A stretch of DNA of 64,000 nt. Origin: Nitrospira sp. (GTDB lineage Bacteria > Nitrospirota > Nitrospiria > Nitrospirales > Nitrospiraceae). The DNA is taken from the NCBI GenBank assembly GCA_024998625.1, contig JACOEL010000006.1:62001-126000 (forward strand), written 5' to 3'. Shown piece after piece: positions 18,601 to 60,423 of the stretch; position 1 is the stretch's first letter, and each line of letters opens with the position of its first letter. The position numbers and the translations under genes are program-made. The notes below the pieces were generated by a model. It was not told the DNA's origin and searched no databases. It saw only the letters and a list, made by a program, of their open reading frames with translations.

Positions 18601-20613
18601 GTGTTCTGGCATGACCACGCGTTCGGCGCGACGACCTGGCCCCATGGCGGGTTCGGCGTGACGATCGTGGAGCCATACGGATCCACCTATCATGATCCGA
18701 AGAACGGCAAGTTGGTGTATAGCGGTCCGATCGCGGACATTCACAGCAACGAGCCGATCGGTGCCGGTGTCAGCGGCAGCTTCCGTGAGTTGATGGTCTC
18801 CATCCACGACACGGTCCCGCACACCGTCAACGTCATCGAAGCCGGCAATCCTCCCGGACAGCCGATCGAAGTGGCGTTGGAAGCAGGAAAAACGGTGTCG
18901 TTCCAGATGCCGGACAAGATCCTGAATGCGCCGAACAAGTACATCAACGGCGGGACGCATACGACCGGCAGCGGCTTCAACTTCCGCGCGGCCCCGTTTG
19001 CGCAACGTCTGTCCAACAATCCGGACACCTCGAAGCTGTTCAGCAGCGCGATCCATGGCGATCCGGGTACTCCGCTCCTGCGGGCGTACACGGGCGACAC
19101 CATGGTGTTCCGCCTGTTGCACCAGCTGATGAACGAATCGCACGTCTGGACGATCGCCGGACATACCTTCCTGACGGAACGGTATGCGTCGGATGCCAAC
19201 CGGAAGAACTCGATTCACGTCGGGATCGCCGAGCGGTATGACCTCGTCACCAAGGCGGGAGGATTCCAGGGTATGCCGGGTGACTACATCCACTTCAACG
19301 GCAGAACGTCACACTTCGCCGAAGGTGGATGGGGCATCATCCGCGTGCTCGATAAGGAAGTGGCGGATTTGAAGCCGCTGCCCAGGGGGACCAATCCTCT
19401 CGGGATTCCAGCGACTCCCAATTCCGTCTGTCCGTCGGATGCCCCGGTGAAGAGCTTCAATGTTGTGGCGTTGGATCGCCCGATGAAGCTCAACCCGAAG
19501 GCCCCGGATGCGATCGAGGTGGACTTCGAGCGGAAGATCGAAATGACCATGCCGGAAGGCAAGATCTTCGCGCTGGAAGAGGAAGCGACGACAGTGGCCA
19601 GCGGAGTGACCCCGAACCCGTTGACCCTGCGCGTCAACCTTGGTGACTGCATCAAGGTGAATCTGAAGAACAAGATGAAGGCGAGCCGGGCGTCGTTCTT
19701 TGCGCCGGGCCTGGCCTTCGATCCGAAAGACAGCCAGGGCTTGAATGTCGGCAACAATGCCGGCGATCAGACTGTGGCTCCGGGCGAGAGCCGCACCTAC
19801 ACCTATTACGCGCATCCTTCCAACAAGGAAACGACGTCGTTGGTGTGGGACGGTGGCAACATCGTCGTCAATCCGCGTAACGGATTGTACGGCGCGATCG
19901 TCATCGGTCCGAAGGGATCGCAGTATCGTGATCCAGTCACCGGTGCCGATGTGTCGCAGAAGAACGTGTGGCGGGCCGACGTCATCGTCGATGCCAGCCT
20001 TCCTGAAAACGTCGGCAAGCGGAACTACCGTGACGTGGCCCTCTTCTTCCAAGATGAGGACAACATCATCGGAACCGCGTTCATGCCCTATGTGCAGAAT
20101 GTGGCCGGTTTGACGTCGGTGAATTACCGCGCTGAACCGTACAAGTTCCGTGAAGAACAAGGCTGCTCGCTGGGCAAGATCTTCCAGCCCTGCGCGGTGG
20201 ACAAGCCCGAAGATCCCGTCACGCCTCTGATCGAGGCGCATGCGGGTGATGCGATCCGTATTCACGTGATCGGGGCGAACAGTGAGCAGAACGGTATGTT
20301 CAGCGTCGAGGGCCACGAGTGGCCGATCGAACCGTACATGCCGGGTGCCGACATGATCAGCGTGGTGGAATACGCCGGGTCTGAGACCCTCGACGTCTTC
20401 ATCCGTGGCGGTGCGGGCGGACCGTATCGTCAGGTGGGTGACTTCGTATGGTCGAATGCGCGGCTGCCCTACACGCAGTCCGGACAGTGGGGCTATCTGC
20501 GCGTGTTGCCGACCGGCGATGCGCGAATTCAGCCTCTGAGCGCCAGCGGATCGGGTGCACGTCAAGCCGAGGTGCAGCCTGATGTGCAAGCGATTCCGAC
20601 GGCCATGAAGTAA
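15676..20613 (+). CDS. Giant secreted multicopper oxidase (MofA-like length)
   Basis: 1645 residues, far longer than laccases (about 500) and close to the MofA-type manganese oxidase of Leptothrix (about 1660). A signal peptide ends near residue 38 (WVFA-AG). Copper-ligand clusters are spread over several cupredoxin domains: H293 (HSWSHD), HSHHPH at 451-456, HCHVAHHYVAGM at 526-537 (type 1/type 3 signature with a Met axial ligand), HPH at 831-833, WHDHAF with H979, and HVWTIAGH from H1156. The chain therefore looks like two fused oxidase units plus a C-terminal cupredoxin part. It should oxidise a metal or organic donor and reduce O2 in the periplasm or outside the cell. Start: ATG after AAAGGAGGG. 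The natural substrate is not deducible; Mn(II) oxidation is a hypothesis. Confidence 0.9.
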   Translation: MRSSVQSKRRRISRKAMRSLQAALLSGSLLAAPWVFAAGPGDQSHEGHATPVAMPGWTQTLKGQTVVENAMEGRAGNAEKMEMQHHRLMEKLEQQAQTDAKAQQTSGAFNEMSMMHQYMGQDGSSFLLASDSSKGEPVMTSGGKCPANAPVKKYDVSMINIEISLNRWLDFYPGYMYVHTGDIDKVRAEETKNKEAREKDGFDPGAVTTGNQGDAIQPLVLRANQGDCVKMTLRNQMEGEDGSLVIQASSMIVSATGKPATTTNPDTVVSPGKSQEFEWYIHPQMQEGVRQFHSWSHDRELTVLGLFGAFIVEPKGSKYLDPLGTGAAPDTNSGWQVMIDNGSGPDFREFVLFYHEIGDEAFRPLNKKGDFLPQRDPLTDAYRPGGRAINYRSEPFGIDQMHLQHEYFGFEDESLAYSAYTFGDPPTTVARGYLGDPVKWRLVHGGSEVFHSHHPHSGTIRWQRSPGTELNNLWAAGQDGPVKYPVVRTKSDRVDVEVVGPSEALDLEPECGGGGCQHLAGEFLYHCHVAHHYVAGMWGYGRFYNTLQVGNAHTDTMPDMRELPDRQGRMKQGVSSDKLIGTTVDWFGKTFKIVDKSQKTNWKSDPVIVNIKDWVEMFVPAQGQPGHTNDEKGQIMAYDSTVWDWKWDGNIARGERESTAPNPKYQWAAKWDDSTRPAILFDPTTGKMAWPLFKPHFGKRVPFSANHSGAPWLEPIHQDANGERTSEPALPGEQGRWSLCPDNANRKHYNIHFVRMPITLAKKQGKEPAMVDKDGLIYVLHEEERLTRANDDLKLPAVIRANVYDCVDLLLTSEWDDDDYTNFQSSKINIHPHFFQFDTGNSDGVISGMEYEMSVRPFTMWGKKTKHGLPAPMVAKLTGEAKAGAASIKFQMAPGATPFHVNTELMVGMDCLEKGNDPAASLPRDKSCQEVARVKEIKGDVITFFKPLKHNHPAGDLVSPEFVRYRWWVDVDMGTVFWHDHAFGATTWPHGGFGVTIVEPYGSTYHDPKNGKLVYSGPIADIHSNEPIGAGVSGSFRELMVSIHDTVPHTVNVIEAGNPPGQPIEVALEAGKTVSFQMPDKILNAPNKYINGGTHTTGSGFNFRAAPFAQRLSNNPDTSKLFSSAIHGDPGTPLLRAYTGDTMVFRLLHQLMNESHVWTIAGHTFLTERYASDANRKNSIHVGIAERYDLVTKAGGFQGMPGDYIHFNGRTSHFAEGGWGIIRVLDKEVADLKPLPRGTNPLGIPATPNSVCPSDAPVKSFNVVALDRPMKLNPKAPDAIEVDFERKIEMTMPEGKIFALEEEATTVASGVTPNPLTLRVNLGDCIKVNLKNKMKASRASFFAPGLAFDPKDSQGLNVGNNAGDQTVAPGESRTYTYYAHPSNKETTSLVWDGGNIVVNPRNGLYGAIVIGPKGSQYRDPVTGADVSQKNVWRADVIVDASLPENVGKRNYRDVALFFQDEDNIIGTAFMPYVQNVAGLTSVNYRAEPYKFREEQGCSLGKIFQPCAVDKPEDPVTPLIEAHAGDAIRIHVIGANSEQNGMFSVEGHEWPIEPYMPGADMISVVEYAGSETLDVFIRGGAGGPYRQVGDFVWSNARLPYTQSGQWGYLRVLPTGDARIQPLSASGSGARQAEVQPDVQAIPTAMK

Positions 20614-20641
20614 GTAGGACCGTCATGGCGTAACACCGGAT

Positions 20642-20682
20642 GGGGGAGCTGCCTGTATCACGCAGCTCCCCCATCTGTGTTT
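20642..20682 (+). terminator. Intrinsic terminator after the oxidase gene
   Basis: GGGGGAGCTGC (20642-20652) pairs perfectly with GCAGCTCCCCC (20662-20672) over 11 bp, followed by ATCTGTGTTTT. It is the strongest terminator in the window and separates the oxidase transcript from the blue-copper gene. Confidence 0.85.
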
Positions 20683-21765: not shown

Positions 21766-21774
21766 GCGGAGGAA

Positions 21775-21843
21775 CGTCATACGTCAAGGGTCAACTGTCA
21801 TTCGGCAAACCCATCTCTTGCGGTTGACGTATCACGTATGACG
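21775..21843. repeat. Short palindromic spacer repeat (family B)
   Basis: CGTCATACGTCAA (21775-21787) is complementary to TTGACGTATCACGTATGACG (21824-21843), apart from an inserted TGATACG unit. A further GTCAATGACGAGTGACG stretch follows up to the next start codon. This ACGT-rich repeat style recurs at 33745-33775 and inside the RND gene at 34733-34787. Confidence 0.45.
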
Positions 21844-27391: not shown

Positions 27392-27865
27392 GTGTTGGCA
27401 CTGGTCTGGATTCACTTGCTGGCGGCTATGGTATGGATCGGGGGGATGGTATTCTTGTCCGTGGTGCTGGTGCCGGTGCTGAAGCGGGATGGGGCATTTG
27501 CTCAGTACGCCCTGCTGTTCCGAACGGTTGCCTATCGGTTTAGAGCCGTGGTTTGGGGGGCGATGGGGATCCTCGTGGCGACCGGACTCACGCTGGCTAC
27601 AGGTCGATCGATTCCGCTGATGGAACCATCCCGCTGGCCCACGATTTTTGCCGCGAAGATCGGATTGGTGACGCTGCTGTTCACCCTGACGCTGCTGCAT
27701 GATCTCGTGGTCGGACCGCGTGTGCGACGGAGCTTGGGAATTCCTGAAGCAGAGCGATCCGCGAGGGATCGGGTGCTATTACGTTACTCGGTGCTCGTCC
27801 CGCGTATTTCGTTACTGGTCGCGCTGTTGGTGCTGTTGCTCGCCGTCGTTCTGGTCCGCACCTAG
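27392..27865 (+). CDS. CopD-like four-helix membrane protein
   Basis: 157 residues from a GTG with AAGGAAGG upstream; a TTG at 27368 is the longer option. Four membrane helices: LVWIHLLAAMVWIGGMVFLSVV, then VVWGAMGILVATGLTLATG, FAAKIGLVTLLFTLTLLHDLVV, and ISLLVALLVLLLAVVLV. The first helix has the His and WIGGMVF pattern of the CopD/HemJ-like group, members of which bind haem or handle copper. With the copper oxidase 7 kb away a copper role is possible but not shown. Confidence 0.75.
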   Translation: MLALVWIHLLAAMVWIGGMVFLSVVLVPVLKRDGAFAQYALLFRTVAYRFRAVVWGAMGILVATGLTLATGRSIPLMEPSRWPTIFAAKIGLVTLLFTLTLLHDLVVGPRVRRSLGIPEAERSARDRVLLRYSVLVPRISLLVALLVLLLAVVLVRT

Positions 27866-27915
27866 GCATTTGTCCGGGTCATGCCATTCTCCTGCGGCAA
27901 ATGATTTGCAACCAT

Positions 27916-27995
27916 CTGCGTTGTTCTCGGCCCGAAAAAATCCTCAACCCATTTCAGCGAATAGGCTTCCGGTTTTTTCGCGCCTGCGGCCTCGC
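27916..27995. repeat. Inverted-repeat element between convergent genes (family A, diverged copy 3)
   Basis: CGAAAAAA (27933-27940) pairs with TTTTTTCG (27973-27980); the core CTCAACCCATTTCAGCGAATAGGC aligns with the CTCAACGTACC core of the 5727 copy. With an A-run on one side and a T-run on the other it would work as a two-way terminator for the converging CopD-like and CHASE3 genes. Relation to copies 1 and 2 is weaker than theirs to each other. Confidence 0.4.
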
Positions 27996-28033
27996 ATCTC
28001 CCAGCAGCTCCTTCGCTCGCAACGAAGAATTAC

Positions 28034-28726
28034 TCAGACAGACTCCTGGTGGCGTTGGAGCGAGTGCAGGAGGCGTTCAGCCTGTGCCTGGCTGGTGAGG
28101 GCCATTTTGATCACAATGCCGCAAAGAGTGAACACCACCGCATTCAGGAGGAAGAATACGGCGGCGAACGAGCCGGTCGTAAAGGCCCAGGTCTCGGAGT
28201 CTGCCCGATGGCGTTGCAGGACCCTGGTTTCCTCTTCCCTGATCTGCGCGGAGATATCCTGGATGGTCTCCATCGTCCGATTTTGCTGATTGACGGCCAC
28301 GACCGACTTGGCATAGGGCAGCCCCTTGGTACGGCGTGTCACGATGGCCTGGTCCAATTCTTCCGAACGTTGTTCGACCTGTGTGGCAAGATAGGCCACC
28401 CGGTCCTGCTGAACGGCATTGTCCCTGGTCAGTCCGCCGATTTTCCGAATCTGCGCTTCCAGGGTCGTGACCGCTTCGCGATAGGGGGGGAGGTAGTCCT
28501 CGGCTCCGGTAATAATGTAGCCCCGCTGGCTGGTCTCAGCTCCCGCCACCGTACTCATCATCCGCTCCAACTCCAGCAGCACCTGCTCGCTCCTCGTGGC
28601 CCAATTGTTGGCAGTCTTGAAGTGCACTAAGCTGAGAAAGCAGGCTGCGACGATGGACTCAACCGCTATAAATCCCACGGCAAGGGTGATGAGAAGGCCT
28701 TTGCCGGAAAAAAGACGATGGAGCAT
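28034..28726 (-). CDS. Stand-alone CHASE3-domain membrane protein
   Basis: 230 residues on the minus strand; the ATG at 28726 has GGAGGG ahead of it. One membrane helix (LLITLAVGFIAVESIVAACFL), a periplasmic all-helical CHASE3 sensor domain of about 140 residues with the family signature ETSQRGYIITG, a second membrane helix (FAAVFFLLNAVVFTLCGIVI), and a short cytoplasmic tail ending QRHQESV. CHASE3 normally sits at the front of a kinase, cyclase or chemoreceptor, but here the output domain is missing and the tail is under 20 residues. It could be a truncated receptor or a partner that signals through another protein. Confidence 0.8.
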   Translation of the reverse strand: MLHRLFSGKGLLITLAVGFIAVESIVAACFLSLVHFKTANNWATRSEQVLLELERMMSTVAGAETSQRGYIITGAEDYLPPYREAVTTLEAQIRKIGGLTRDNAVQQDRVAYLATQVEQRSEELDQAIVTRRTKGLPYAKSVVAVNQQNRTMETIQDISAQIREEETRVLQRHRADSETWAFTTGSFAAVFFLLNAVVFTLCGIVIKMALTSQAQAERLLHSLQRHQESV

Positions 28727-32455: not shown

Positions 32456-32644
32456 ATGAAACTCAATGAATGGCTTCGTTTGATCGCCGGGGTGTTTGTC
32501 CTTGGCGCGGTGGTGCTGGGCGCGACCGTGCATCCCTACTATAATTACTTCGCCGCGTTCGTTGCGGCGAATCTGATCCAGTCGTCATTCAGCGGCTGGT
32601 GTCCGATGATGGCTCTCTTGCGGAGGTTGGGTGTTCAGGAATAA
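32456..32644 (+). CDS. Small DUF2892/YgaP-like membrane protein
   Basis: 62 residues from the ATG after AAGGGGG. Two membrane helices (LIAGVFVLGAVVLGATVH and YFAAFVAANLIQSSFSG) followed by CPMMALLRRLGV, the classic end of the YgaP transmembrane domain. In YgaP this is fused to a rhodanese; here it stands alone. Its last 14 bases overlap the start of the RND adaptor gene, implying translational coupling and perhaps a role in that efflux system. Confidence 0.8.
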   Translation: MKLNEWLRLIAGVFVLGAVVLGATVHPYYNYFAAFVAANLIQSSFSGWCPMMALLRRLGVQE

Positions 32645-33719
32645 CGACGCGTCCGTGAAGGCGGGATGGTTGGTGGTCGCTCTCCTGGTAGCGGCTGGCT
32701 GTGGGCAGTCCGAGCAGCCGCCCCGGAGCGGAGAGGCTCCGTCGGTGACAGCCGTTCAGCCTGCCCTCCAGCTGGCGGTGATTGAGGTGAAGACCAGCCA
32801 GGTCCCGGTGACGATCGAAGTAACCGGGCAAGTCACGGCGGTCTATCAGGCGACGTTGGCCAGCCGCATACAGGGCACCATCGACAATTTGCTGGTCCGT
32901 GAAGGCAGTGTCGTACGCAAGGGGCAGACCCTGATGGTGCTCGACAATCGTGATTTGCAGGCCGAGTTATCCCGGGTGACCGCGGAACTCGACAACGCCA
33001 AAGCTCACCAGACTCGGATGGAAGACCTCTACCGGAAGGATGCGGTATCCAAGCAGGAGTTGGAGAACGCCACGCGCGGGCTACGGGTGGCCGAGGCCGC
33101 TCGGAAAGCTGTCCTCGCGCAGTTGAGCTACACGATCGTGAAAGCGCCGTTCGATGGCGTCATCACGGAGAAGAAAGTTGAAATCGGGGAACTGGCCTCA
33201 CCCGGGCAGCCGTTGCTCAAGATGGAAGATCCCGAACGACTCCGGCTGGAGGCGACCGTGGCCGAGAGCGATGTGCGGGTGGTGTCGGTCGGGTCACCGG
33301 TGCCGGTCGTCATCGATGCGCTCGGCGCCGATCCCCTCAAGGGGAAGGTGTCGCAGATTCTGCCTGCGGGCGATCCGCAAACCCATACCTTCATCATGAA
33401 GGTAGATCTTCCGAAGACGGGCGGGCTCAAGTCGGGAATGTTCGGTCGGCTCCGTCTTGAAAAGGGGATGAACGCGACGCTGCTCCTCCCGAAGTCGGCC
33501 TTCGTCGAGCGGGGCGAGCTGGCCAGTCTATTCGTCGTCGGAAGCGACGGGGTGGCACGTCTTCGATGGGTCAAGATCGGCCGTACGCTGGAGCAGGGAG
33601 TTGAAGTCCTCTCCGGCGTGGATGCCGGTGAGCGAGTCGTCGTGGACGGGAGCAAGGGCCGGGACGGTACGTTGGTGCAAGACATGACGGCGGTGGCATC
33701 GCCGTCGCAGGCGCCATGA
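32631..33719 (+). CDS. RND efflux periplasmic adaptor lipoprotein
   Basis: 362 residues from GTG with CGGAGG upstream. A lipoprotein signal, LVVALLVAAGC, places Cys24 as the lipidated residue. Then come the membrane-fusion halves (QATLASRIQGTIDNLLVREG and KAPFDGVITEKKVEIGELA), a short helical hairpin, a beta-barrel domain and a membrane-proximal domain. Together with the RND pump 138 nt downstream it forms the inner part of a tripartite exporter. No TolC partner is in this operon, though the next operon has one. Confidence 0.9.
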   Translation: MFRNNDASVKAGWLVVALLVAAGCGQSEQPPRSGEAPSVTAVQPALQLAVIEVKTSQVPVTIEVTGQVTAVYQATLASRIQGTIDNLLVREGSVVRKGQTLMVLDNRDLQAELSRVTAELDNAKAHQTRMEDLYRKDAVSKQELENATRGLRVAEAARKAVLAQLSYTIVKAPFDGVITEKKVEIGELASPGQPLLKMEDPERLRLEATVAESDVRVVSVGSPVPVVIDALGADPLKGKVSQILPAGDPQTHTFIMKVDLPKTGGLKSGMFGRLRLEKGMNATLLLPKSAFVERGELASLFVVGSDGVARLRWVKIGRTLEQGVEVLSGVDAGERVVVDGSKGRDGTLVQDMTAVASPSQAP

Positions 33720-33744
33720 AGCGGATTTGGGAAGCTGCGTATCT

Positions 33745-33775
33745 CGTGAAACGTGAAAAGTAAAACGTGAAACGT
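33745..33775. repeat. CGTGAAAC-type short direct repeats (family B)
   Basis: CGTGAAACGTGAAA, then AAACGTGAAACGT: three CGTGAAA units within about 30 bp in the spacer between adaptor and pump genes. The same ACGTGAA motif makes up the arms of the insertion inside the pump gene 1 kb downstream. Confidence 0.45.
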
Positions 33776-33857
33776 CGCTTGTCGGAGAACCAGATTGGGG
33801 GAGAAATACGAGCGATGCTCCGCGAGAGACGAACGCCATGCGTATGACGGTTGGCGA

Positions 33858-36800
33858 ATGACGAACCCACGCCTTGGCGTCAGCGGCCGGCTGGCCGCGC
33901 TGTTCGTCGGCAGCAAACTCACCCCGTTGATCATCATCGCCAGCCTCCTGCTCGGGCTGTTCGCGGTGCTCCTCACGCCGCGCGAAGAAGAGCCGCAGAT
34001 CGTCGTGCCCATGGCCGACGTCTGGCTCTCGTTCCCGGGGGCCTCCGCAAAGGTGGTCGAAGAGCAGCTCACCAAGCCCATCGAACGCAAGCTGTCCGAA
34101 ATCAAGACCGTCGAATATGTCTACTCCATCTCCCGTCCCGGCGGGGCGTTGATCATCGTCCGCTTTTATGTCGGCGAGCCGATGGAACAGAGTCTGGTGG
34201 ATCTCTACGACAAATTGATGTCGAACCAGGATCTGCTGCCGCCGGGCGCTCAGCCGTTTCAAGTCAAACCGAGGGATGTGAACGATGTGCCGATCGTCAC
34301 CTTGACGCTGTCCAGTGAGCGGTATACGGATTTCCAGTTGCGACAACTGGGCGATCAAGTCCTGGAAGATGCGAAGAAGGTTCCCGGCACTGCAGCTGGT
34401 TTCGTGGTGGGTGGTCGCGGCCGCGAGTTGCGGGTGCAGATCGATCCCTCACGCCTGAAGGCCTATGGCCTCACACCGCTGCGGGTCGCCGGCGTCATTC
34501 AGGGCGAAAATCTCGCGTTGCCCACAGGCCGGTTCGAAAGCCGGAATGAAAGTTTTCTGGTGGAGACCGGCCGGTTCATCCGTTCGAAAGAGGATCTGGA
34601 AGGGGTGGTTGTCGGCGTCAATGAACAACGGCCGGTGTACCTTCGTCAGGTGGCCGAAGTGACCGATGGACCGACCGAAGCGACCAGTTATGTGTGGCAT
34701 GGCGAGGGTCCAGGCGGTGCGCATGACACGTTAGACGTGAACGGTGAACCGAATACGTCCGCGTCTCGCCTTGTACCGTTCACGTCTCCAGAAAATCCGG
34801 CGGTCACCGTGGCGATTGCTAAACAGGCCGGGACCAACGCTGTGACGATTGCGCAGGGCGTCATTCGAAAAGTCGAGGAACTCAAAGGAACCCTGATTCC
34901 CGACGATGTGCGGGTGACGGTGACGCGGGATTACGGAGAAACCGCCGATGAAAAAGCCAACGAGTTGCTCTGGCATCTCCTGATCGCCGTGGTCGCCGTC
35001 GTGGTGTTTCTCGGACTGACACTGGGGCTGCGCCCCGCACTGGTGGTCTCAATCGCGATTCCACTCACGCTGGCCCTGACCCTGTTCATTTCCATGCTCA
35101 TCGGCTACAGCATCAACCGCGTCACGCTGTTCGCGCTGATCTTTTCCATCGGCATACTCGTGGATGACGCCATCGTGGTGGTGGAGAACACCTACCGGCA
35201 TCTCACGCTGCGGATCCGCCCGCACCGGGAGGCCTCGCTGTTTGCCGTCGACGAGGTCGGCAACCCGACGATTCTTGCCACCCTCACGGTGATTGCCGCG
35301 CTCCTGCCCATGGCGTTTGTCTCGGGCTTGATGGGGCCCTACATGCGGCCCATCCCGGTGAATGCCTCGATTGCCATGTTCGTCTCCCTGCTGGTGGCGT
35401 TCATCGTCATCCCCTGGTTCTGCCAGACCTGCTACCGGCCCGGTGTGCACATGGCCGGGGTCGATCACGAATCGTTCGAGGGCAGCCGCAGTTATCGCTT
35501 GTATCAGCGGCTGCTGTCCCCGGTGTTGTCCCATCCGGTCGTGGCCTACCTTGTGTTGGCGGTCATTGCGCTCTTGCTGGTCGGGTCGGTGGCGCTGTTC
35601 TACACCCGGGCGGTGGTGGTGAAGATGCTGCCGTTCGACAACAAGAGCGAATTGCAGCTGGTGATCGATATGCCGGAAGGCACGACGCTGGAGGAAACGG
35701 CCCGGGTAACGAAGGCTTTGACGCAGTACGTGCGAACGATTCCGGAGACCCGCGATTACCAGGCCTATGTCGGCACGGCTTCGCCGTTCAATTTCAACGG
35801 ACTGGTTCGGCATTATTATCTGCGCGACCAGCCGTACGAGGCCGACATTCAAATCAATCTGGTCGCCAAGGAACAACGGAAGGCGCAAAGTCATGACATC
35901 GCGCAACGGATTCGTTCCGCGGTGCAGGACATCGGGCGGCCCTTCGGAGCGAACGTGAAAGTGCTGGAGGTGCCGCCCGGCCCGCCGGTGCAATCTGTGC
36001 TGGTGGCGGAGATCTATGGGCCCGACTATGAGCGGCAGAGGGCGATAGCGCGGGAGGTCCGTGGACTGTTTGAAACGGCGCCGGGCGTCGTCGATGTCGA
36101 TGACTACCTCGAAGCCGACCAGGTGAAGTATGTGTTCAGTGTGGATCGCGCGAAGGCGGCGCTGGCCGGGATTCCATCGGAGGAAATCGTCCGGACGTTA
36201 CGACTGGCATTGGAAGGCGCCGATGTCGGACTGGTGCACCTTCCCAAAGAAAATCGTCCGGTGCAGGTGCGGCTGCGCCTGCCGATCATCGAGCGGACCG
36301 GCCTGGAGCATCTCGGCGAGATTTCGTTGCGAACCCCTGCGGGCCACATGGTGCCCTTGTCCGAACTGATTCGAGTGGAACAGACCGTGCGGGAGAAGGC
36401 GATCTATCACAAGAACCAGAAACCGGTCGTCTATGTCATTGCGGATGTGGGAGGAGTCGGCCCCGACAAAGGTGAGAGTCCTGTCTATGGTGTGATGGGC
36501 ATCGGGCGGAAACTGGAGCAGCTGGTGTTGCCGGAAGGGTATGCGTTGACGCAGCACTATGCCGTGCAGCCCTGGTCGGAACAGCGGTTTGCGATGAAGT
36601 GGGACGGCGAGTGGCATATCACCTATGAAACATTTCGAGACATGGGGATCGCCTTTGCGGCAGCGTTGCTGTTGATCTATTTGCTGATCGTGGCGCAGTT
36701 CCAATCGTTTCTCACGCCGGTGGTCATCATGGCACCCATTCCGCTCACCTTGATCGGGATTCTTCCCGGCCACTGGCTCACCGGGTCCTATTTCACGGCC

Positions 36801-37187
36801 ACATCGATGATCGGCTTTATCGCCCTCGCCGGTATCATCGTGCGCAATTCGATTCTGCTGGTCGATTTCATTCAACATCAAGAGGCGGAGGGTGTTTCGC
36901 TGTTGGAGGCCGTCATTCGCGCGGGCGCGATCCGTACCCGTCCCATTCTGTTGACGGCCGCAGCACTGATGGTCGGGGCGTTCGTGATTATTCTCGACCC
37001 GATTTTCCAAGGACTGGCCGTCTCGCTGTTGTTCGGCGTCGGTGCCTCGACGGTGCTGACGCTGGTCGTCATTCCCGTGCTGTACTATCTGTGGATCGGC
37101 GGCCCTAGAAATTCACCTGCCGGCCTGATACCGAAACCACAGAACACAGAGTTGCCACAGCCGGTCGCGGGAAGCCAACCGGGATGA
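33858..37187 (+). CDS. RND-family efflux pump (inner membrane)
   Basis: 1109 residues, the usual length for AcrB/CzcA relatives, with twelve membrane helices: one near residue 25, a block around 360-530, one near 570, and a block around 930-1090. The proton-relay pair is present in IGILVDDAIVVVENTYR (TM4). Duplicated periplasmic porter domains lie between. Sequence details such as GTLIPDDVRVTVTRDYGETADEKANELL fit the HAE/CzcA-like bacterial group; the substrate is not deducible. The ATG at 33858 is chosen because the first helix begins soon after; a TTG at 33795 extends the frame. A palindromic insertion of about 22 codons lies around residues 290-312 (34725-34790). Confidence 0.9.
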   Translation: MTNPRLGVSGRLAALFVGSKLTPLIIIASLLLGLFAVLLTPREEEPQIVVPMADVWLSFPGASAKVVEEQLTKPIERKLSEIKTVEYVYSISRPGGALIIVRFYVGEPMEQSLVDLYDKLMSNQDLLPPGAQPFQVKPRDVNDVPIVTLTLSSERYTDFQLRQLGDQVLEDAKKVPGTAAGFVVGGRGRELRVQIDPSRLKAYGLTPLRVAGVIQGENLALPTGRFESRNESFLVETGRFIRSKEDLEGVVVGVNEQRPVYLRQVAEVTDGPTEATSYVWHGEGPGGAHDTLDVNGEPNTSASRLVPFTSPENPAVTVAIAKQAGTNAVTIAQGVIRKVEELKGTLIPDDVRVTVTRDYGETADEKANELLWHLLIAVVAVVVFLGLTLGLRPALVVSIAIPLTLALTLFISMLIGYSINRVTLFALIFSIGILVDDAIVVVENTYRHLTLRIRPHREASLFAVDEVGNPTILATLTVIAALLPMAFVSGLMGPYMRPIPVNASIAMFVSLLVAFIVIPWFCQTCYRPGVHMAGVDHESFEGSRSYRLYQRLLSPVLSHPVVAYLVLAVIALLLVGSVALFYTRAVVVKMLPFDNKSELQLVIDMPEGTTLEETARVTKALTQYVRTIPETRDYQAYVGTASPFNFNGLVRHYYLRDQPYEADIQINLVAKEQRKAQSHDIAQRIRSAVQDIGRPFGANVKVLEVPPGPPVQSVLVAEIYGPDYERQRAIAREVRGLFETAPGVVDVDDYLEADQVKYVFSVDRAKAALAGIPSEEIVRTLRLALEGADVGLVHLPKENRPVQVRLRLPIIERTGLEHLGEISLRTPAGHMVPLSELIRVEQTVREKAIYHKNQKPVVYVIADVGGVGPDKGESPVYGVMGIGRKLEQLVLPEGYALTQHYAVQPWSEQRFAMKWDGEWHITYETFRDMGIAFAAALLLIYLLIVAQFQSFLTPVVIMAPIPLTLIGILPGHWLTGSYFTATSMIGFIALAGIIVRNSILLVDFIQHQEAEGVSLLEAVIRAGAIRTRPILLTAAALMVGAFVIILDPIFQGLAVSLLFGVGASTVLTLVVIPVLYYLWIGGPRNSPAGLIPKPQNTELPQPVAGSQPG
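34733..34787. repeat. Palindromic repeat inserted in frame in the RND gene (family B)
   Basis: AGACGTGAACGGT (34733-34745) and ACCGTTCACGTCT (34775-34787) are an exact 13-bp inverted repeat with a 29-bp centre. The stretch encodes roughly DVNGEPNTSASRLVPFTS, which interrupts the otherwise family-like sequence between a Gly-rich loop and PAVTVAIAKQ. Confidence 0.65.
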
Positions 37188-52278: not shown

Positions 52279-53418
52279 ATGAAGCGCGGTCAATCAATGG
52301 CTAACCAGCAGCAGTCGGCGGGTGTGACATGGCTGGATGGCCGGACCCTTCGTTGTCGAGGTGCCTGGACCATGCCCGATGTGGCGCCGGTCGAACGTAC
52401 GCTCAGAGAAATGGCCTGGCCCGCTCGAAGCGCGCTGGTCTTTGAGACGAGCGGCATTGAGGCCTTCGATACCGGCGGGGCGGTCGTGTTATATCGCGCC
52501 ATCATGGAAGCCAGAGGCCGGGGCTGCGAGGTCTCGATCGAAGGCCTCCGGTCGGACTATGCGCGGCTGATGAGCCTGGTGTCGTCTAATTGGGACTCGA
52601 TTGTAGCCGAGGTCGCCTCGCGTCCGAACGGGAGTGAGCGGTTTCGGGCGTTGATTCGGAATCGTGTCGCCCAGGGCGCCCGGGCGCTGGAGTTTCTCGG
52701 GGAGAGTGCAACGGCGCTGATTCGTTTGGTGGCGTCGCCCCGTCGCATGCGTTGGCGCAGTTGCCTGAATAGCCTCCGGCTGGACGGGGTCAATGCGCTG
52801 CCGATCACCGGGCTGCTGACGTTTCTCATCGGTGTGGTGATTGCCTATCAGGGCGCCGAACAGCTCCGGAAGTTCGGGACGAATATTTTTATCGTGGATT
52901 TGGTGGGCATCTCGCTGTTGCGGGAAATCGCCCCGCTGATTGCGGCGATTCTGATCGCCGGGCGGTCCGGGTCGGCCTATGCGGCGCAGATCGGCACGAT
53001 GAAGGTCACTGAGGAGCTGGATGCGCTGCAAACCTTCGGTCTGTCGCCGATCGAGCTGTTGGTGTTGCCACGGGTCTTGGCGTTGGTCGTGGCGCTGCCG
53101 CTTCTGACGGCCTACGCCGATGTGTTGGGTGTCTTCGGCGGCATGTTGATCGCGTCGAATCAGCTCAATGTGAGTTTCACCGCCTTTCTCTCGCGCTTCG
53201 AGGAGGCCGTGGCGCTACGGCATATGCTCATTGGTCTCGGCAAGGCGCCCTTCTTTGCCGTCATCATTGCGCTGGTCGGCTGTTATCAGGGGTTCCAGAT
53301 TCGCGGCGGGGTGGATGATGTGGGGCGGCATACGACGATCAGTGTGGTGCAAAGTATTTTTCTCGTCATCATTTTTGATGCCATCTGCAGCATTCTCTTG
53401 AACTGGTGGAACCTGTAG
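52279..53418 (+). CDS. mlaE: MlaE-family ABC permease with N-terminal STAS-like domain
   Basis: 379 residues. Residues 1 to about 110 resemble a STAS domain (TLRCRGAWTMPDVAPVERTL, SGIEAFDTGGAVVLYRAIME). The permease part begins near residue 165 with the DUF140/MlaE signature: LPITGLLTFLIGVVIAYQGAEQLRKFG, LREIAPLIAAILIAGRSGSAYAAQIGTMKVTEELDAL, and five membrane helices. It belongs to the intermembrane phospholipid transport complex with the next three genes. Classical E. coli MlaE has no STAS; there MlaB is a separate protein, so this is an MlaB-MlaE fusion. An alternative ATG at 52297 shortens it by 6 residues. Confidence 0.88.
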   Translation: MKRGQSMANQQQSAGVTWLDGRTLRCRGAWTMPDVAPVERTLREMAWPARSALVFETSGIEAFDTGGAVVLYRAIMEARGRGCEVSIEGLRSDYARLMSLVSSNWDSIVAEVASRPNGSERFRALIRNRVAQGARALEFLGESATALIRLVASPRRMRWRSCLNSLRLDGVNALPITGLLTFLIGVVIAYQGAEQLRKFGTNIFIVDLVGISLLREIAPLIAAILIAGRSGSAYAAQIGTMKVTEELDALQTFGLSPIELLVLPRVLALVVALPLLTAYADVLGVFGGMLIASNQLNVSFTAFLSRFEEAVALRHMLIGLGKAPFFAVIIALVGCYQGFQIRGGVDDVGRHTTISVVQSIFLVIIFDAICSILLNWWNL

Positions 53419-53505
53419 CCCGGATTATTCATGAGTAATCCGGGCTGCCAAGATGTTTGAAACCTGTTCTCCGGCCCGACCTAATCTTGGGGAGTGGCAG
53501 GTGTC

Positions 53506-54312
53506 ATGTCTGTAGCTGTGCAAACTGAGACGCCCGTGATCGAGGTCAGCCATGTCTCGACGCAGTTCGGCGCGGCGGTCGTGCATCGGGATGTGAGCCT
53601 CACGGTCGTGCGTGGCGAGGTGTTCGCCATTGCGGGCGGGAATGGTTGCGGGAAATCGACGCTGTTGCGGGAAATCATCGGGTTGCTGACTCCGACGACG
53701 GGGACGATTCGTCTGTTGGGCAAGGACAGCCGCGAGCTGACCCATTTGAATGGCCGTCCGCTGCATCGCCGGTTCGGTGTGATGTTTCAGCATGGCGCCC
53801 TGTTCAGTTCCATGACCCTGGCGGAAAACGTGGCGGTGCCGCTTCGTGAGCATACGCCGCTGAGCGCTGAAGCGATTCGGGATATCGTGGCGCTCAAAAT
53901 CGCCCTGGTCGGATTGCCTCCGGACAGCGCGATCAAATTTCCTAGTGAGCTCAGCGGCGGGATGAGGAGACGCGCGGCGCTGGCCCGTGCGATCGTCATG
54001 GATCCGGAGCTGCTGTTTCTCGACGAACCGACGGCCGGACTCGACCCGATGATCGCCGCCGGATTCGACGATCTGGTCCTGGAGTTGAAACGATTGTTGG
54101 GTCTGACCGTCGTGATGGTGACGCACGATCTGGATTCGTTGTGGCGCATTGCGGATCGGGTAGCGGTGCTGGGCGAAGGGCAGGTGCTTGGGTTAGGAAC
54201 GATGGAAGCGCTGGCCCGCTCGGACGATCCCGTTATCCGGAGCTACTTCCACGGTCCCCGCGGGCGTGCGGCTCATCTGAATCATTTCGGGACAGGACTG
54301 CACCGGGATTGA
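53506..54312 (+). CDS. mlaF: MlaF-type phospholipid transport ATPase
   Basis: 268 residues. Walker A is GGNGCGKST, the Q-loop VMFQHGALFSSMTL, signature LSGGMRRRAALARAI, Walker B LLFLDEPTAGLDP, H-loop VMVTHDLDSL. The sequence matches MlaF (Mkl) better than other ABC ATPases, in line with its position next to mlaE and mlaD. It energises lipid movement between the inner and outer membranes. A GTG at 53494 gives four extra residues; the spacer before it carries GATTATTCATGAGTAATC, a short dyad. Confidence 0.88.
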   Translation: MSVAVQTETPVIEVSHVSTQFGAAVVHRDVSLTVVRGEVFAIAGGNGCGKSTLLREIIGLLTPTTGTIRLLGKDSRELTHLNGRPLHRRFGVMFQHGALFSSMTLAENVAVPLREHTPLSAEAIRDIVALKIALVGLPPDSAIKFPSELSGGMRRRAALARAIVMDPELLFLDEPTAGLDPMIAAGFDDLVLELKRLLGLTVVMVTHDLDSLWRIADRVAVLGEGQVLGLGTMEALARSDDPVIRSYFHGPRGRAAHLNHFGTGLHRD

Positions 54313-60024: not shown

Positions 60025-60254
60025 CAGGTCCTGCCTGATTGATGGTTTCTGAATGGCCGCTGGGCTCCTCGCAATCGGCTTCAGCCGTCAACTGATAGAG
60101 CCTTCCACTGTCGGTTTCAGGACCGCGAATCCGGTGATCGGCAGTATCACCGTGAACATCAGCAGCGCGTCACCGCCTGCTGTATCACGCCTTCCAAGCG
60201 GCTCACCGTCCGGCGCTTAATAACCGGCGAATGTGAAGTGCGGATGGAGCCTCG

Positions 60255-60419
60255 ATGAAGAAATATTCATGGAGAAATTCTTCACCCTCTCTTCATTGTC
60301 AATTCATGTTCTGCGGCTACAGTGACATCGTGCCGGTCACGCTGCTGCTGTTATTGGTCATTGGCGCAATGGGAGTCCTGGCCTTCTGGGCCTTGTCTCT
60401 GCTGAATCTATCCGAGTAA
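60255..60419 (+). CDS. Small single-pass membrane protein (54 or 37 residues)
   Basis: An unlisted small frame. From ATG 60255 (GGAG 6-9 nt upstream) it gives 54 residues; from ATG 60306 it gives 37. Both end in a clean hydrophobic segment, VTLLLLLVIGAMGVLAFWALSLL, then NLSE and TAA. The hydrophobic stretch with FWAL near its end is faintly like CcoS-type helices of cbb3 oxidase assembly, but that is too weak to name. A perfect 10-bp hairpin follows 5 nt after the stop. Confidence 0.5.
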   Translation: MKKYSWRNSSPSLHCQFMFCGYSDIVPVTLLLLLVIGAMGVLAFWALSLLNLSE

Positions 60420-60423
60420 GTGG

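Follow-up and report, generated by a model that had tools for sequence, protein, structure and literature searches.

A palindrome read in frame in a Nitrospira RND pump gene as a probable coding member of a heptamer-array hairpin family

The STRR of cyanobacteria are seven-base tandem repeats between genes, and in this they are like the arrays described here; unlike the arrays, they are known as direct repeats without an inverted partner. The nearest described case that we found is the TAACTGA heptamer, which forms direct repeats in marine Beggiatoaceae, some Cyanobacteria and Bacteroidetes (MacGregor 2015, PMC4679880). In the available portion of that article, these repeats share several traits with the arrays of the window (the whole 64-kb stretch of DNA analysed here): both are intergenic 7-bp words with stops in all frames in the forward direction, both have rare coding copies (at protein edges for TAACTGA), and both are patchy across lineages and have no known mechanism. 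The same portion describes the TAACTGA repeats as nearly all direct and near-perfect, with one indirect repeat reported and related heptamers rarely repeated (PMC4679880), whereas the arrays of the window's lineage have degenerate units, inverted pairs and several alphabets that replace one another at a given slot.

Rickettsia palindromic elements (RPEs) are palindromes read in frame within genes, like the insert described below, and appear in the accessible text of PMC10969869 as families of ~150 bp in many genes. Compared by description, the family of the window differs in its length of ~55–150 nt, its lack of a shared core, its mostly intergenic placement and its phylum; its members, unlike RPEs, have a word in common and not a sequence. 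Prokaryote MITEs, in the same text, are short, non-coding intergenic hairpins with inverted ends, present or absent between relatives (PMC10969869), as the arrays are, but the arrays have no conserved core and no sharp ends, and neither a target duplication nor a parent transposon was found for them. REP/BIME elements with RAYT also give many intergenic palindromes per genome and have a 20–40 bp consensus (PMC12306157, accessible text, in which the single mention of Nitrospira is a table row), whereas the arrays consist of heptamers and their number does not follow Y1 transposases. Four array strings were found in no paper's text, and literature searches for repeats, MITEs or palindromes in Nitrospira and for heptamer repeats listed no paper on these arrays.

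Table 1 Coordinates of the pump gene, its palindromic insert and the intergenic arrays discussed in the text
Feature	Position	Strand	Remarks
RND (AcrB/D/F-type) pump gene, likely start	33858..37187	+	Open reading frame open from 33795; Pfam match; matches solved RND pumps
In-frame insert, heptamer-array hairpin (probable)	34725..34790	+	Codes residues 290-311, modelled as a disordered turn
5' arm of inverted repeat	34733..34745	+	AGACGTGAACGGT
3' arm of inverted repeat	34775..34787	-	ACCGTTCACGTCT; ACGTGAA on minus strand
Intergenic ACGTGAA array, 5 imperfect units	33744..33778	+	Between membrane-fusion-type gene 32631-33719 and pump gene
Intergenic two-arm hairpin, ACGTCAA-type heptamers	21774..21837		Absent there in G012, G023, G001, G008

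The palindrome lies in a gene whose product is an AcrB/D/F-type RND protein (Pfam ACR_tran, 5.6e-166) that also matches solved RND pump structures (Table 1). The gene likely starts at the ATG at 33858, chosen from sequence reading and the starts of orthologues. A preliminary description had reported an exact 13-bp inverted repeat that keeps the frame, and both points held: the two arms are exact inverted copies over 13 bp with a 29-nt spacer between them, and the frame stays open across the segment. The 5' arm and the bases next to it form two heptamer units, ACGTGAA CGGTGAA (34735–34748). The 13-bp inverted repeat in the pump gene exceeds chance; exact inverted repeats of ≥13 bp with a spacer of ≤40 nt number two in the window, compared with a mean of 0.083 in its dinucleotide shuffles (n = 60), where any were seen in 4 of 60. 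The second of the two (20639–20675, GATGGGGGAGCTG, 11-nt spacer) lies directly after a gene ending at 20613 and is perhaps a terminator. The arm word of the pump has no other site in the window, even allowing two mismatches, and the 75-bp pump segment has no second good match in the 4.42-Mb genome (next best E 0.29); the genome search proposed earlier thus returned no second sequence copy, and the other members that it found belong to a motif family only.

The same description had the insert adding about 22 residues to a conserved region. The stretch in question, between Y-V-W and P-A-V-T motifs, is not conserved in length: most of the 81 pumps in an alignment of the window's sequence with 80 related loci of many phyla differ in it, and it covers 29–52 residues among 30 sequences from the genus and its near relatives. 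It has 33 residues in the usual short state and 51 in the window pump, so the gain is real but comes to ~18 residues, nearly all of which is explained because the palindrome spans 55 nt. Many sister species among the 30 close relatives have the short loop, and in their orthologues the insert is missing, as had been suggested, but related loops do occur beyond the genus (L012, L013, L014). In an AlphaFold2 model built from 37 aligned pumps (mean pLDDT 80.7), residues 291–309 have a pLDDT of <50 and lie between beta strands 278–283 and 313–322, which places the insert, as modelled, in a disordered turn between two beta strands that it extends.

The ACGTGAA direct repeats noted earlier 1 kb upstream of the insert are an imperfect array with a 7-bp period (Table 1), and arrays of this kind recur through the genome. 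Members consist of 2–6 imperfect 7-bp units, many with a second inverted array shortly downstream. Typically, two inverted ACGTGAA-type arrays surround an unrelated core of ~15–50 nt between neighbouring genes, and heptamer alphabets other than the ACGTGAA type sometimes occur. Self-similarity in 415 kb (N excluded, lowered thresholds) was in excess at lag 7 (20 versus 7 in shuffles) and lag 14 (26 versus 3) and showed no excess at lags 5, 8, 10, 11 and 13; lags at multiples of 3 were also raised, as coding DNA would give. Among 37 distinct clusters in the window's own genome, 30 are intergenic and 7 lie inside called open reading frames, one of these being the pump loop and two belonging to a portal-type gene; the other four are probably chance or start-site errors. 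The likeness to RPEs that the preliminary description had drawn thus survives in part, as an in-frame palindrome with kin in the upstream array and in a genome-wide motif family, set against the many in-gene insertions of RPEs (PMC10969869, accessible text). A strict RPE reading was rejected, with no second copy, mostly intergenic clusters and unshared cores.

Arrays are common in the window's family, which is probably of Nitrospira type by its nearest named matches, but in the rest of the phylum their numbers are close to background. The two-unit array ACGTGAAACGTGAA has 121 sites in the genome at ≤2 mismatches, compared with 11 for a reversed control, and at ≤1 mismatch 27 of 29 genomes of the genus contain array matches (479 in total versus 8 for the control). 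Across 245 genomes sampled from the phylum, matches were found in 61 of 62 genomes of the family (at most 155 in one genome), in 14 of 15 genomes of the order outside the family (mostly 1 to 4) and in 52 of the remaining 168, where they are mostly 1 or 2 and control-like. Within a further set of 49 genomes, reached via other loci, a clear excess was seen in G029, G030 and G031, which are Nitrospira or Nitrospirota MAGs, and in G049. The last of these, a Calditrichota MAG from outside the phylum (genome of L032), has 12 array matches versus 1 for the control, which may reflect a system of its own, transfer or contamination. An Armatimonadetes MAG (G036, genome of L019) has 95 matches to the reversed control and 1 to the true word, and perhaps harbours a separate heptamer family. 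Among IMG/VR viral contigs, 25 stretches (L323–L347) contain ACGTGAA arrays, some of which form hairpins with the arms in one order or the other; one has eight array clusters within 10.9 kb (L340), and two have a GTTTCAA-type alphabet besides the ACGTGAA arrays (L342, L343).

To relate the pump loop to this family, we used a 14-position matrix made from 114 intergenic array sites of another genus (G203). Run over each pump gene, the matrix had its best site in the loop in 15 of the 16 sequences with a long loop and in 1 of the 14 with a short one (L171); in the long-loop sequence L014, two positions outside the loop score as high. The window pump scores 19.9 bits in the loop and 12.1 bits at best outside it, with two units in the forward arm of the insert and one good unit (10.7 bits) in the reverse arm. 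We conclude that the insert is probably an old, in-frame coding member of the heptamer-array hairpin family that is tolerated in the loop. Points against this explanation are that no second sequence copy exists, that the stem is not conserved, that L014 and L171 are exceptions, that no mobilizing gene or target duplication was found for the arrays and that recombination alone could account for the exchange of slot alleles.

Coding copies of arrays are rare, comprising the pump loop and both tails of a portal gene of phage type. In a pure ACGTGAA array, TGA recurs at 21-nt intervals in each of the three frames, whereas the reverse array is open in every frame; because TGA recurs in this way, the longest open run in a pure forward array is six codons, N-V-K-R-E-T. 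The portal-type gene (L003, own genome C12:14327-17357) has a PHROG portal match over residues 87–482 and no Pfam match, and its arrays, read in frame, encode residues 15–23 and 504–525, both tails outside the conserved domain, with ACGTCAA units where TGA would fall. Long pump loops have two main forms, A (window, G012, G023 and G028) and B (G001, G014, G025, G020, G027, G005, G011 and G003), and the forward units of both lie in a frame giving V-K/N-G/R-E-T/S/P in most rows, as expected because TGA limits the open runs of ACGTGAA arrays. The pump copy would be an old, tolerated, coding descendant of an array hairpin, whose survival may be due to its place in a variable turn and to a forward arm of only two units. 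The protein would gain a longer floppy turn, and we claim no function for it.

On a quick pump tree built without the loop, in which several branches are weak, long and short loop states changed at least 7 times, and A, B, other and short states at least 10 times; the window pump (form A) clusters with G001 (form B). Loop type showed no correspondence with the similarity of the adjacent flanks within 600 nt, which would limit a transferred tract to a very short length, and joint recombination of loop and flanks was rejected on the same result.

Orthologous intergenic slots compared between sister species carry different alleles. At site158 (contig C27, 25 genomes), we found two-arm ACGTGAA hairpins in 7 genomes, one arm in 4, a MITE-like repeat in 6, a gap of <50 nt in 7 (among which G004 and G017 are uncertain, with poorly aligned flanks) and another state in 1; G002, which was not placeable, and duplicate rows of three genomes were left out. 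At site108 (contig C25, 28 of 29 genomes placed), 16 genomes have the ACGTGAA type, 9 a second alphabet, 2 another state and 1 a gap (44 nt), with at least 9 state changes on a tree built from the flanks of 26 rows (without L293, L311 and L313). The second alphabet consists of ATRGCNN units in the same inverted layout as the ACGTGAA arrays, with hairpins in site108 loci L290, L296, L300, L306, L308, L309 and L311 and also in L312. Presence/absence polymorphism was seen at both orthologous sites, and with shuffled slots 13 of 3800 trials and 20 of 5400 gave a match to any of the array expressions. By eye, the slot 5' of the pump holds the ACGTGAA array in the window, a CTCTCGTGAAGCGT hairpin in G001, GCYATNN heptamer hairpins in G012, G023, G025 and G028 and TCAGCNN units in G020, with nothing clear in G016 and G010.

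In the account that we favour, array-ended hairpins would be inserted or synthesized locally by a word-specific process to give the slot alleles, which would be shuffled between species through short recombination; later they may wear, or slippage and template switching may match their arms again. A more speculative reading, less likely than not, is that the hairpins form a class set by a grammar and not by a sequence, namely a period of 7, an inverted pair and a few permitted heptamer alphabets; each copy would be made anew by a word-specific machinery, alphabets would replace one another at intercistronic slots of fixed position, and some few copies would have become coding loops.

Alternatively, the hairpin could move as a unit by MITE- or RPE-like transposition, with the arrays serving as terminal inverted repeats for some transposase. 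The inverted arms, the contrast between occupied slots and empty ones of 4 nt (G008, G021, G022 and G026) and the true MITE-like family that sits at the array slot site158 in six sister genomes would all fit this reading, which we nevertheless consider unlikely: the cores are unshared, a 10-mer outside the arrays being common to one own-genome pair out of 91 and to none of 45 pairs in G203; no target duplication was evident by eye at site158, where the flanks have diverged; and the number of Y1 transposases does not track that of arrays. The window itself (27851–28050, 53406–53540 and 60051–60420) and orthologous slots in G001, G012, G023 and G025 have other intergenic MITE-like repeats with sharp inverted ends (CCCGGATTATTCATGA..., AGGAGTCTGTCCGAGTAA... 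and CAGGATGTTGAAAA...), whose presence differs between sister species.

Somewhat less probable still is an origin purely in situ, in which slippage builds the arrays and hairpin template switching builds the inverted copy without any element or factor. It would account for imperfect units, for arms that differ, for one arm having grown internally between the own genome and G001 in the slot 5' of the pump, and for a two-sided change between form A sisters, where 1 of 14 pairs changed on both sides in four sequences (C-G in the window genome and G012, A-T in G023 and G028). Slippage, however, would amplify arbitrary words, and here one word recurs in some ten genera of a single family, with counts close to background beyond the order; that one word is common to many members argues against slippage alone.

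We give the same low probability to a functional signal, an intercistronic RNA hairpin or heptamer-binding array regulating its neighbours, with the pump copy as a by-product or co-opted. Several array hairpins form much more stable folds than their shuffles (z as low as −5.3), one layout is retained with different alphabets, and of 28 two-arm hairpins the 24 between two called genes include 20 in tandem, 4 in convergent and 0 in divergent gaps, although divergent gaps make up 21% of intergenic bases in an own-genome sample, a rough comparison because several hairpins come from other genomes. Folding does not favour the sense over the antisense strand (11 versus 11 of 22, p 0.75), which argues against selection on RNA, the slot is empty in many sister species, and Rfam gave 0 matches in 9 sources, the window included. 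The pump insert itself folds with −25.6 kcal/mol (z = −3.3), but G012, G023 and G028 each have one broken stem pair. Conserved pairing in the pump loop was rejected on the single two-sided change and these broken pairs, and the lack of a conserved perfect stem counts against a structural role.

A chance palindrome in an ordinary variable loop would suit a loop that varies in all bacteria examined and a stem that is not conserved, but is very improbable given the rarity of such repeats in shuffles and the independent matrix result in 15 of 16 long loops. Hardly tenable is spread as REP elements by a RAYT (Y1) transposase, or production of arrays by reverse transcriptase: the hairpins do lie in intergenic DNA and 1 Y1 match was found in the own genome, but dependence on either enzyme was rejected because array counts in 76 genomes do not correlate with Y1 (rho 0.01) or RVT_1 (rho 0.10), reach 53 array matches without any Y1 and 115 without any RVT_1, while RVT_1 matches are absent from the own genome.

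With the pump insert read as a probable coding member of the array family, one odd palindrome leads to a lineage-wide repeat system in relatives of nitrifiers. Occupied, empty and exchanged slot states can be compared between sister species, so that the origin of heptamer repeats, likewise unexplained in Beggiatoaceae, becomes directly testable. The pump loop would also offer a case of a DNA repeat turned protein loop, in which TGA every 21 nt limits which copies can code.
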